Assembly (NCBI GenBank): GCA_013360215.1
Contig: JABWCP010000041.1
Location: 1 to 18,026, forward strand
Reading direction: 5' to 3'
DNA length: 18,026 nt
From: a bacterium
GTDB taxonomy: Bacteria > CLD3 > SB21
Shown: positions 121 through 12,238 of the stretch, in pieces
Numbering within the stretch: the first letter of the stretch is position 1
Layout of the letters: the number at the start of each line of letters is the position of its first letter
The notes under the pieces: model-generated
Databases searched by the model: none
Told to the model about the DNA's origin: nothing
Seen by the model: the letters and a program-made list of their open reading frames with translations, nothing else
Translations under genes and position numbers: made by a program

Positions 121-1065
121 TTATAGGGTACGTAGTCGAGTAATATGCGTATTGCGTAAAAGACGCCATTTTCGGGTAATATGCGCAATAGCGTTGAGGA
201 TGGTGGGATCACCCTCCCGTACGATACCCGTTTTGGGGTGGTCGGTGTACCAACGATCCAATGGGCTCTCTATTTTAGAAAGCTCGCGGCTGCTTACATG
301 GGTATAAATTTCGGTGGTTTTGGAACTCTCGTGACCAAGCAACTCCTGTATATAGCGAATATCCACCCCCGATTCTAAAAGATGCGTAGCAAAACTATGG
401 CGCAACGAATGTACAGATACTCTTTTTTGAATGCCGGCACGGGAAGCCGCGTTTGTAAACATTTGCTGGATCGAACGCACGCTATACCGACCACCATGGA
501 CTCCTTCAAAGAGATATTTTTTTGGCCGACACTGTTTGTAATAATCTCTTAAAAGCTTCAAAGCCTGATCGGATAAAATAGTAAACCGATCCTTTCCACC
601 TTTACCATTACGAATATGAAGCAGCATACGTCTGGAATCAATGTCGTTAACGTTCAGGTTCACCGCTTCACCGACACGCAAACCCGAGGAATAGATCAAA
701 AAAAGAACACAGCGATGCTTCATATTTTTGACGGAAGCAAAAATACCGCGCAACTCATCCTGACTCAGAACAACCGGCAAACGCACTGTAACGCGCGCAC
801 GCTGATATGCCAAATTCATTTTTTCGCGACCGAGAAAATTTTCAAAGTAACATTTGAATGCGTTGATCGCTTGATTTTGATATGACGGCGAAACACCCGC
901 CGGAACCAGCACGTCTTGTATATACATAAGCATATCGTGTTCCGTGAGAGACGACGGCAAACGATCTTTGTAATGCGTGAAAAGACGCTTGAGCTGCATT
1001 TCGTAAGCACCCAAAGTATTGGAACTATACCGACGAAGCTTGAGCATTTCGATGAAAGCTTTCAT
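121..1065 (-). CDS. Tyrosine recombinase / phage-type integrase (XerC/D-like)
   Basis: A site-specific recombinase that would cut and rejoin DNA through a covalent phosphotyrosine. From the chosen start it has 314 residues. Residues 1-80 form the SAM-like N-terminal DNA-binding domain. The catalytic set is complete: R130 (GLRVGEA), K155 (GKGGKDR), H219 and R222 (HSLRHSFATHLLESG), H245 (LLGH) and Y254 (EIYTHV), with the same H-to-Y spacing of nine as XerD. The frame opens further upstream at 1197, but that start lies inside a terminator hairpin. The Met at 1065 is preceded by a GGGTGG purine tract and begins the conserved domain. It lacks the extra block of integron integrases, so IntI is unlikely. 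It could be a mobile-element integrase or an accessory Xer protein; no attachment site or attC array is visible. Confidence 0.9.
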   Translation of the reverse strand: MKAFIEMLKLRRYSSNTLGAYEMQLKRLFTHYKDRLPSSLTEHDMLMYIQDVLVPAGVSPSYQNQAINAFKCYFENFLGREKMNLAYQRARVTVRLPVVLSQDELRGIFASVKNMKHRCVLFLIYSSGLRVGEAVNLNVNDIDSRRMLLHIRNGKGGKDRFTILSDQALKLLRDYYKQCRPKKYLFEGVHGGRYSVRSIQQMFTNAASRAGIQKRVSVHSLRHSFATHLLESGVDIRYIQELLGHESSKTTEIYTHVSSRELSKIESPLDRWYTDHPKTGIVREGDPTILNAIAHITRKWRLLRNTHITRLRTL

Positions 1066-1111
1066 GTAACCACCCAGAGAATTTATTGAAGAATAGACCC
1101 ATCCCTGAAGA

Positions 1112-1140
1112 AACTTAACACAACGGTATTTTGAGGTCAA
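1112..1140 (-). promoter_or_regulatory. Candidate promoter for the recombinase
   Basis: On the minus strand TTGACC (1140-1135) is followed after 17 bases by TAAGTT (1117-1112), extended to TAAGTTTC. This fits sigma70 spacing weakly and the Bacteroidetes pattern TTG...TAnnTTTG better. It lies between the upstream terminator and the Met at 1065. Assignment is by eye only. Confidence 0.35.
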
Positions 1141-1181
1141 GAAAAAAAAAAGGAAATTGCGATCCACGTCAGCGATAAAAC

Positions 1182-1213
1182 AAAAAGGCTTCATCACATA
1201 TTGATGAAGCCTT
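1182..1213 (-). terminator. Rho-independent terminator after the Lys/Glu-rich protein gene
   Basis: A perfect 12-bp stem (1185-1196 with 1202-1213) encloses a 5-base loop. On the minus strand it is followed by five T residues (plus-strand A-run 1182-1186). It lies 28 bases beyond the stop codon at 1241 and ends the minus-strand gene run that includes the ThyX-like gene. On the plus strand the stem is followed by TTACG, so it acts mainly on minus-strand transcripts. Confidence 0.9.
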
Positions 1214-5144: not shown

Positions 5145-6374
5145 TTAATCGGTTTTGAGCTGAATACGCATCGTCGTACCCAAACCCGGGCGGCTTTCTT
5201 TGACAAATATTTTGCCCCGATGGTAATCTTCGACAATCCGTTTGGCCAAACTCAAGCCGAGGCCCCAGCCACGTTTTTTGGTACTGAAGCCGGGACGAAA
5301 TACATTTTTGAAATTATCGGGATCAATGCCGCGTCCATCATCGGCGACGTCAATGTACACAGAATCTCCCGATTTACTCAAGGACAATTTGATAATGCCC
5401 TGGGGTTTTTCGATCGCGTCCACGGCGTTTTTGACTAAGTTTTCGATAACCCATCCGAGCAATTGAGCGTTGATAAAAATGGCCGGATCGCCGTCGTAAT
5501 TTTCTTCGATGACGATTTGTTTGGTCTGCGGGAGACGGCGGCGAAAATACCCGGCGGTTTCCTGCAAAATCGAAACGACCGGCTGACGACGCAAATCCGA
5601 CGCCGATCCGATCTGTGAAAAACGCGCCACGACACGATCCAATCGCCGCAGGTCCACTTCCATTTCCTGCAAAATCTTCATCGTACTTTCGCGTTTTTCA
5701 GATTGCTCGCGCAATAATTCGATCCAGCCCAACATGGATGACAGCGGCGTACCCAACTGATGCGCTGTTTCTTTGGCCATACCCACCCAGATCGAACGCT
5801 GCTCGCTGCGCTTGATATTGCTAAACCCGATGTATCCGATCAGAATAAACGCACCGACAAGGCCGATCTCAATATATGGAAGCCACGCCAGTTGGCGGAT
5901 TAACCGCGTATCCGTATCGTAGTGAATATAACCGAGAACGTTTTGTTCGTACAAAATCGGCAGCGGCGTATTCAGCGCATCCATTTCTTTCATCACCGAT
6001 GTCAGTTTTTCGCGCGTTTCCGCCGTCATCGTATCCCCGGAAACGCCGGGAATATTGCGCCAGGACAGCGGTTCGCCCGTGGGATCGGTATTGATGATGG
6101 GAAAATCAATGCGTTTGATGATTTCATCAAACATAAAGCTGTATTCGCCGTTGGGATCGCCTTCGCCGATATGCGCGATAAGATGGGTGTAGATGCGCAC
6201 AAGGTGGCGTGAATCGCCGCGGAGTTTTTCAACGACGTACTGCGTATATAATACGACACCGAATATCATCAGTATCGCGACGGCGAAAAGGCCGCTTTTG
6301 ATATTGATATTGAGACGGTATGGGTCGTACACCGTGCGTGTATTGCGGGATGAATCGGATGTTTCTTTTTTCAC
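5145..6374 (-). CDS. Membrane sensor histidine kinase
   Basis: A 409-residue two-component sensor. A short cytoplasmic tail is followed by a membrane segment (about 27-47), an extracytoplasmic sensing region (48-170) and a second membrane segment (171-192). The phosphoacceptor H205 lies in MAKETAHQLGTPLSSMLGWI, then a HisKA helix pair. The ATPase domain has N316 (ENLVKNAVDAIE), VADDGRGI (343-350), the F-box region FRPGFSTKKRG and GWGLGLSLAKRI (369-380). All are intact. The start is GTG at 6374; a nearby ATG is out of frame. No response regulator gene is adjacent, so the kinase is an orphan here. Its promoter must lie in the 77 bases before the repeat array or inside the array. Confidence 0.93.
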   Translation of the reverse strand: MKKETSDSSRNTRTVYDPYRLNINIKSGLFAVAILMIFGVVLYTQYVVEKLRGDSRHLVRIYTHLIAHIGEGDPNGEYSFMFDEIIKRIDFPIINTDPTGEPLSWRNIPGVSGDTMTAETREKLTSVMKEMDALNTPLPILYEQNVLGYIHYDTDTRLIRQLAWLPYIEIGLVGAFILIGYIGFSNIKRSEQRSIWVGMAKETAHQLGTPLSSMLGWIELLREQSEKRESTMKILQEMEVDLRRLDRVVARFSQIGSASDLRRQPVVSILQETAGYFRRRLPQTKQIVIEENYDGDPAIFINAQLLGWVIENLVKNAVDAIEKPQGIIKLSLSKSGDSVYIDVADDGRGIDPDNFKNVFRPGFSTKKRGWGLGLSLAKRIVEDYHRGKIFVKESRPGLGTTMRIQLKTD

Positions 6375-6451
6375 ATCGGTTGGGTGTTAATTTTACCCGT
6401 CAGTTTATATATGAATCCGCGATCATTTCGGTTCGGCAAGCCTGCGGAAAA

Positions 6452-7399
6452 CCCGCTCGCTAAGGCGCCAAGGCACAAGAAATATACTGATTAAAACTCA
6501 ACTCTGCTTTGCGGCTTTGCGAGGATGTTTTTTTCGGTCGCTTCGTTGCACAATACCCGCTCGCTAAGGCGCCAAGACACAAAGTAATATACTGATTAAA
6601 ATTCAACTCTGCTTTGCGGCTTTGCGAGGATGTTTTTTTCGGCCGCTTCGTTGCACAATACCCACTCGCTCAGGCGCCAAGATGCAAAGAATTATACTGA
6701 TTAAAATTCAACTCTGCTTTACGGCTTTGCGAAGATATGTTTTTTATCGGTCGCTTCATTGTGCAATACCTGCTCGCTAAGACGCTAAGGTGCAAAGTAA
6801 TATACTTAAAAATTCAACTCTGCTTTGCGACTTTGCGAGGATATGTTTTTATCGGTCGCTTCGTTGTGCAATACCCGCTCGCTAAGGCGCCAAGGTGCAA
6901 AGTAATATACATAAAGATTCAACTCTGCTTTGCGACTTTGCGAGGATGTTTTTTTCGGTCACTTCGTTGCGCTATACCTGCTCGCTAAGGCGTCAAGACA
7001 CAAGAAATATACTGATTAAAATTCTACTCTGCTTTGCGACTTTGCGAGGATATGTTTTTTATTGGTCACTTCGTTGCGCAATACCCGCTCGCTAAGACGC
7101 CAAGGCATAAAGTAATATACTGATTAAAATTCAACTCTACTTTGCGACTTTGCGAGGATATGTTTTTTATCGGTCGCTTCGTTGTGCAATACCCGCTCGC
7201 TAAGGCGCCAAGGTACAAAGTAATATACTGATTAAAATTCAACTCTGCTTTACGGTTTTGCGAGGATATGTTTTTTATCGGTCGCTTCGTTGCGCTATAC
7301 CCGCTCGCTAAGACGCCAAGGCACAAAGTAATATACTTAAAGATTCAACTCTACTTTGCGGCTTTGCGAGGATATGCTTTTATCGGTCACTTCGTTGCG
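6452..7399. repeat. Tandem array: nine copies of a 103-108 bp repeat
   Basis: Units begin at 6452, 6556, 6661, 6769, 6874, 6977, 7084, 7192 and 7300, each opening with CCCGCTCGCTAAGGCGCCAA or a close variant. Each has an AT-rich middle (TAATATACTGATTAAAATTC), then CTTTGCGGCTTTGCGAGGAT, a T-run and TCGGTCGCTTCGTTGC. CTCGCTAAG at the front and CTTTGCGAG later form imperfect hairpin arms (8 of 9), with a second pairing of ACAAAG with CTTTG. Copies differ by scattered substitutions and small indels. The array fills the gap between the NAGPA-like gene, whose stop codon begins three bases beyond it, and the histidine kinase. Frames open inside it are only translations of the repeat. Similar CGCAAAG-type elements occur dispersed in many bacterial genomes (general recollection). 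Confidence 0.95.
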
Positions 7400-7401
7400 C
7401 A

Positions 7402-8535
7402 TTAATTATCGGCGCTTACAATGACGAGCGCATCGGAAATCGGGCGCTCTAATCCGCTGTCCGAAGGGCGATTGACCAAACGATCACGAATAAGCATGGC
7501 TGTGGAACCGCCGCCATCAAGATTGGAGGCCGATTCGCAACCGAGCGCGATCATCAAGTCGGCCAGTTCCGTCAGGTTCATACCCACGCTGTAGTTAGCT
7601 TGCTTGCCGTCCACGCATACCAAAATCAGTTTTTTTCTTGCTTCGGAATAGCCGATCGCCGTGCGGGCATTGGCATTGCGTGCAAATTCTTTATTGAGCA
7701 ATGCGCCGTCGAGAATACTTTTCTTTTCCCGAACGAGCACCGGATAAGCACCGATCAATTGGCGCAGGTCTCTATGCGGCAGGCCGCTTTCCATATCAAT
7801 ACGCACGACCATACCCGGGCGCATGCGACGAAGCCGTTGCATATTGGCCGCGCCATGCCCGCTCAAAATCCAGGTGGAATCGTCCAGCGGATGATCGCCT
7901 TGGGCCGAATCCACTTCGCGTACGATCGCTTCGATCGGCCGATCCCATGCTTCGGGAATTTTTCTGACGCTCAGCCGGACTTCCGTGCCGAAATTATTGG
8001 TTGCCGTCGAGCGGCCATAATAATCATTGTACAAAATAATTTCATTGTCCAGGCGGGGACGGTTAACACCTTGCACGGAAGTTACACGTTCACCCGTGGC
8101 TTTGAAATGCGCACTCGGACGAATCGCTTCAAAATACACGCGACCGCTTTGTGTGAATCCGACCGACGACCATATCTCCGCACCGTTTTTGATCCAGACG
8201 CCATCGCTTACCAACGCACCGGAAGGGCTTCCTTCCTGTGAAAAAAAATCTCCATTGATCGCGGCAATAGTTCCGGGTATGGAAGCCGCTACTTTGGTAA
8301 GGGGTTCGGTGTCATAGATATGATCCCCGGCTTTGACGGCTTTGACTGTCCACCGCGTAGAAGGCCAATCTAACTCGAGAATGTGAATCGTATTGGGTAC
8401 GGCATGCTGGATGATGCGGATGTATTTCAATTCCGAGGCGATTTCTTCCGCTTCGCGGGTTTCCCCGCCGGTACAACCGCTCCCCCCCGAACAAAGTATA
8501 ATCCAAAGCGGTAACCATTTTGCAAATTTCAACAT
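7402..8535 (-). CDS. Phosphodiester glycosidase (NAGPA/DUF2233) family predicted lipoprotein
   Basis: A 377-residue exported protein. A hydrophobic signal (residues 4-20) ends in GSGC, so Cys21 may be lipidated; the lipobox is weak. The domain is recognised by AAINGDFFSQEGSPSGALV (91-109), ARTAIGYS and the hallmark NLTELADLMIALGCESA followed by NLDGGGSTAM (338-347). Family members include the mammalian uncovering enzyme that removes GlcNAc from phosphodiesters and bacterial exopolysaccharide or spore-wall proteins. It probably acts on a phosphodiester-linked sugar in the cell envelope; the substrate is unknown. It lies 75 bases downstream of dnaE in the same direction, and its 3' end abuts the repeat array. 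Confidence 0.88.
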   Translation of the reverse strand: MLKFAKWLPLWIILCSGGSGCTGGETREAEEIASELKYIRIIQHAVPNTIHILELDWPSTRWTVKAVKAGDHIYDTEPLTKVAASIPGTIAAINGDFFSQEGSPSGALVSDGVWIKNGAEIWSSVGFTQSGRVYFEAIRPSAHFKATGERVTSVQGVNRPRLDNEIILYNDYYGRSTATNNFGTEVRLSVRKIPEAWDRPIEAIVREVDSAQGDHPLDDSTWILSGHGAANMQRLRRMRPGMVVRIDMESGLPHRDLRQLIGAYPVLVREKKSILDGALLNKEFARNANARTAIGYSEARKKLILVCVDGKQANYSVGMNLTELADLMIALGCESASNLDGGGSTAMLIRDRLVNRPSDSGLERPISDALVIVSADN

Positions 8536-12160: not shown

Positions 12161-12238
12161 TGGGGCGAGCGACGGGGCTCGAACCCGCGGCCTTCAGGGC
12201 CACAACCTGACGCTCTAACCTGCTGAGCTACGCCCGCC
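12161..12238 (-). tRNA. tRNA-His (anticodon GTG)
   Basis: A complete cloverleaf on the minus strand. The acceptor GCGGGCG pairs with CGCTCGC (one G:U). The D stem is GCTC/GAGC, the anticodon stem TCAGG/CCTGA with loop TTGTGGC (anticodon at plus-strand 12203-12201), and the T arm GCGGG-TTCGAGC-CCCGT. The extra G at position -1 (12238) faces discriminator C73 (12164), the identity pair specific to tRNA-His. CCA is encoded (12163-12161). Confidence 0.98.

Follow-up and report, generated by a model that had tools for sequence, protein, structure and literature searches.

What is a block of about 1 kb of tandemly repeated, palindromic DNA doing between two bacterial genes that lie almost side by side in related genomes? 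The window analysed here (the whole stretch of 18,026 nucleotides) carries such an array at 6443-7401 on the plus strand, between a phosphodiester glycosidase gene and a sensor histidine kinase gene. A first-pass annotation, made from the letters of the window, had proposed a transcription-buffering or attenuation region, a protein-binding array or an expanding repeat. Our analysis points to the last of these: a gene-less inverted-repeat element, along with roughly 38 bp of the DNA beside it, was probably amplified head to tail at this site. On this reading the element is a member of a dispersed family related to GxxExxY elements. Four observations carry this reading. The array belongs to a family present elsewhere in the genome, that family forms arrays recurrently, its arms surround GxxExxY genes, and the array sits between genes that are near-adjacent in relatives.

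Anatomy and setting of the array

Tandem Repeats Finder (TRF) assigns the array a period of 108, 9.1 copies and a score of 1386 at 6443-7401, and by our unit boundaries nine units span 6456-7401, starting at 6456, 6560, 6665, 6773, 6878, 6981, 7088, 7196 and 7304. The resulting spacings of 104, 105, 108, 105, 103, 107, 108 and 108 match exactly those given, with the same number of units, in the first-pass annotation. Each gene-less unit of 103-108 bp consists of an imperfect palindrome of 67-69 bp (arm, loop, arm) followed by a spacer of 31-39 bp. In the alignment the palindromes lie, all on the plus strand, at 6456-6523 (unit 1), 6560-6628 (unit 2), 6665-6733 (unit 3), 6773-6839 (unit 4), 6878-6944 (unit 5), 6981-7048 (unit 6), 7088-7156 (unit 7), 7196-7264 (unit 8) and 7304-7370 (unit 9), while the unit 1 spacer at 6524-6559 (plus strand, from the unit boundaries) exemplifies the T-run spacer present in every unit. 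Each arm is built of two 8-bp repeats (CTCGCnAAGnCGCnAAG in the left arm, CTTnGCGnCTTnGCGAG in the right), and the core between the arms is AT-rich.

The first-pass annotation had every unit keeping both of its partner sequences, which is correct for most units but not for all. The left 9-mer CTCGCTAAG is intact in eight of nine (unit 3 reads CTCGCTCAG) and the right 9-mer CTTTGCGAG in seven of nine (unit 3 reads CTTTGCGAA and unit 8 TTTTGCGAG), so that unit 3 is mutated in both outer arms. Pairwise identity among the nine units is 83-94%, far above chance, and follows no simple gradient along the array: units 1 and 2 are 94% identical, units 4 and 7 93%, and units 7 and 9 92%. Indels form a mosaic across the units, both in the T-run spacer and in the loop, where they are of the TACTGATTAAAA or TACTTAAA types; this pattern suggests repeated duplication or exchange among units.

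Both flanking genes lie on the minus strand, with Pfam matches to HisKA and HATPase_c for the kinase (5145-6374) and to NAGPA (PF09992) for the phosphodiester glycosidase (7402-8535), so the array is downstream of the NAGPA gene and upstream of the kinase gene. It had been described as filling the gap completely. That holds up to the NAGPA stop codon (TTA, 7402-7404), which the array reaches, but about 70-80 bp of unrepeated sequence separate the array from the start codon of the kinase. Five genomes from the same family share the NAGPA-kinase gene order; in them the distance from the NAGPA stop to the kinase start is 2-88 nt against 1027 nt here. Because the two genes lie so close together in these relatives, the array is, on this comparison of gene neighbourhoods, a lineage-specific insertion and expansion between near-adjacent genes, and the two genes probably formed one operon. 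A blastn search with the array found no match at E ≤ 0.001 in 40 other genomes, so those genomes hold no orthologous array.

A dispersed family that forms arrays recurrently

The same arms occur throughout the genome. A one-arm pattern, CTTWGCGNCTTWGCGAG, has 56 genome matches at up to one mismatch against none for the reversed control; with two mismatches allowed the counts are 91 and 12. These dozens of arms, analysed in the stretches surrounding the matches, make up single elements (for example at locus L066) and five or six further tandem arrays: one on contig C7 (182 bp x 3.8), two on C8 (units of 137-174 bp near 37 kb, and 163 bp x 2.2 near 1.6 kb), one on C44 (158 bp x 1.9), and one of 102-103 bp units at the ends of contigs C4 (L058) and C30 (L070). 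These arrays use spacers other than that of the nine-unit array, whose own spacer blastn finds nowhere else in the genome; the spacer at 120 kb on C7 is found again at 141 kb on the same contig. Thus the expanding hairpin-type repeat of the first-pass annotation is borne out by the tandem array, the dispersed arms and the recurrence of arrays in the genome.

The ends of C4 and C30 have one unit in common (221 of 239 aligned bases identical), which implies that the assembly broke inside that array. This bears on the nine-copy count as well. Divergence between copies had been taken to argue against an artefact, and since the units differ from one another the count is indeed plausible; given the break inside another array, however, the copy number at 6456-7401 could be understated. 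As both contigs end inside the 102-103 bp array, they are probably neighbours in the chromosome. A further regularity concerns arm positions 6 and 14, which are mismatched in nearly all of the genome's elements (the array and L056-L074). Since one arm has A at these positions and the other T or C, the palindrome has a direction.

Beyond this genome, we searched GTDB genomes with a pattern of two neighbouring arms and obtained at least 118 matches; those listed span Bacteroidota, Acidobacteriota, Desulfobacterota, Planctomycetota, Pseudomonadota and others. Among the matches listed, 15 of 118 loci contain tandem arrays with a period of at least 60, and Prevotella arrays have 3-13 units. In an uncultured Prevotella (L161) a 106-bp unit is repeated about six times, and in Prevotella lacticifex (L169, 4005-6100) a GxxExxY gene directly adjoins an array of some 13 units. 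Nine copies in tandem had been called unusual. That holds only in part: this genome has five or six further arrays, Prevotella reaches about 13 units, and REPIN clusters are known. The polarity of the palindrome is reversed at several loci from Flavobacterium and acidobacteria, where GCGAG adjoins the loop, so that the two-arm matches are not all one kind of element. In the acidobacterial MAG MNJR01, about 14 loci (L117, L131, L133 and others) carry a near-identical large palindrome of this opposite polarity, CTTTGCGCCTTTGCGAG and CTCGCAAAGGCGCAAAG separated by 46 bp. In Flavobacterium, the variable stem position 10 is either a T-A or an A-T pair, suggesting covariation there.

Regulation, protein binding and known mobile systems

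Could the array instead be a cis-regulatory region, that is, an attenuator, a transcription buffer or a set of RNA-processing hairpins controlling the kinase? On the coding strand it precedes the kinase start, and its inner stem pairs are largely conserved: 14 of 17 arm positions pair, 10 of these 14 pairs are invariant across the units, and 96.8% of cells are paired. Nevertheless, positions 6, 10 and 14 are mismatched in all nine units. The first-pass annotation had counted an absence of compensatory changes against function, and no two-sided change is found among the 14 pairs of the nine units, so on this point the array behaves as that annotation expected of neutral repeat DNA. At eight loci in the genome an arm pairs no better with its own partner (13.75 of 17 positions) than with swapped arms (14.70). 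Folded as RNA, the nine units are no more stable than their dinucleotide shuffles (z between -0.65 and 0.70), and the coding (minus) strand shows no terminator of the form stem then T-run; the seven terminator-like sites are all on the plus strand and recur because the unit repeats. With no compensatory change, shuffle-like RNA stability and no coding-strand terminator, attenuation and transcription buffering are unsupported. At the gathering threshold, Rfam places no RNA family in the array, its only match being a tRNA at 12164-12237. As relatives with the same gene order also do without the array, we regard cis-regulatory control of the kinase as unlikely. A putative protein-binding array of the kind proposed for BIMEs, with a nucleoid protein, gyrase or the like as ligand, would account for the conserved GCGAG/CTCGC ends and for a regular spacing of about ten helical turns. 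We nonetheless judge it improbable, given that the units drift, that their spacing varies by 5 bp and that the period ranges from 102 to 182 bp among the genome's other arrays.

Two known mobile systems also deserve consideration. REPINs, which are palindromic elements, can lie in tandem clusters that take in the sequence beside them (PMC3116915), and in the array family, as in REPIN clusters and BIMEs, short intergenic palindromes are both dispersed and clustered in tandem with their flanks. Moreover, one Y1_Tnp gene in the genome scores over the cut-off, so a REP/REPIN-BIME-type element moved by a RAYT (Y1 transposase) could in principle have produced a tandem REPIN cluster. Yet there is no arm motif within about 1.5 kb of that gene and no inverted repeat around it, the consensus element has neither the GTAG nor the CGTC tag, the arms are 8-bp direct repeats, and the gene-bearing relatives of the elements carry GxxExxY. 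With tags and transposase association both absent, assignment to REP/REPIN fails, and a RAYT-driven origin appears to us a poor prospect. An integron attC cassette array would be suggested by the tyrosine recombinase at 121-1197 (-), a profile match above the cut-off of the XerA/integron-integrase family NF040815. This reading has next to no chance of being right: RYYYAAC matches lack a GTTRRRY partner in every unit, which contradicts an attC array, there are no cassette genes, and the integron-integrase model TIGR02249 stays below its cut-off (213.8 against 265).

Connection to GxxExxY genes and origin of the array

The genome has one GxxExxY gene (C8, 62143-62490; TIGR04256, 150 bits; PF13366 PDDEXK_3; PD-(D/E)XK superfamily), and it is flanked exactly by the arms CTCGCGGAGACGCAAAG and CTTTGCGACTTTGCGAG. 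About 90 bp downstream lies a gene-less element. Its 17-bp left arm is identical to that of the gene-bearing element, the 47 bp upstream of the arm differ between the two at a single position, and immediately past the arm the two sequences diverge. The gene-bearing form measures 517 bp and the gene-less one 67 bp, the latter being the size of the array palindrome. The common flank and arm mean that flank and element can be copied together.

Similar arms surround GxxExxY genes in G037 (two loci), G026 and a member of the Nitrospirae (L163). More generally, 25 of 28 GxxExxY loci have significant inverted arms, compared with 7 among 107 random places (Fisher p = 8e-18), and whatever their sequence, these arms are inverted and built of 8-10 bp direct repeats. 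Across 117 genomes, GxxExxY occurs in 9 of the 14 that bear the motif against 21 of the other 103 (p = 0.0013). At the 118 motif loci listed, all five GxxExxY genes lie within 450 bp of the motif, and three of the five (L114, L169 and L186, from Prevotella or its family) adjoin tandem arrays. The array units have arms of the same kind and contain no gene; judged by these arms, they are gene-less relatives of GxxExxY-type inverted-repeat elements. From the fold family, as described in Pfam, a nuclease role for the GxxExxY protein is a reasonable prediction.

How could an array such as this arise? An ancestral single copy would have entered next to the NAGPA stop codon, presumably by transposition, although the relatives are too distant in their intergenic DNA to serve as an empty site. 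The element and its flank would then have duplicated repeatedly, by template slippage or unequal recombination that the palindrome may have promoted. The GxxExxY protein, or something recognising the same arms, may help the family to spread. The array can be explained without a dedicated regulatory role, and if the kinase is affected at all, this would be mainly through its separation by about 1 kb from the upstream gene. The array thus looks like a spreading repeat multiplied locally and not like a purpose-built genetic switch.

More tentatively, we propose that GxxExxY genes mark widespread mobile inverted-repeat elements with short-direct-repeat arms, and that gene-less derivatives, recognised in trans through these arms, may spread and amplify in tandem as in the array. 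Against spread driven by GxxExxY stand the many elements in a genome with a single such gene; the arms of that gene (CTCGCGGAG...) differ slightly from those of the array, and arms made of short repeats could have a convergent origin. Taken alone, the array is a lineage-specific repeat expansion, and its wider value is the lead to GxxExxY, which connects the 'CGCAAAGNCGCAAAG' palindromes common in environmental bacteria with a small nuclease-like gene family. Tandem clusters of palindromes are already known from REPINs and BIMEs, and the GxxExxY lead seems to be the new part: in the open-access literature we found no link of GxxExxY to these repeats and no paper on the arm sequences, so the connection seems unreported there. 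GxxExxY is named there in papers whose titles point to an algal virus and to reverse transcriptases, and PF13366 in work on microalgae. Since gene-bearing and gene-less copies lie side by side, the origin of the repeats and a possible function of GxxExxY can both be tested.

Some features of these elements are met in other systems. Like MITEs, the elements of the array are short, gene-less and multicopy with inverted termini, a likeness of architecture alone and not of target-site duplication or a known autonomous transposase. The 23S rRNA intervening sequences likewise have a small gene or none between inverted arms; the array differs from them in lying outside rRNA and in its arm sequences. 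Genes of the four-helix-bundle family TIGR02436 share this layout, with inverted arms of short repeats, again of different sequence, at 21 of 28 loci. Among the listed loci of named genomes only one such gene is near the motif, at 3.5 kb, so there is no direct link to these particular arms. At TIGR02436 loci in relatives (L224-L253), arms of 7-9 bp direct repeats are present in about three quarters of the cases.
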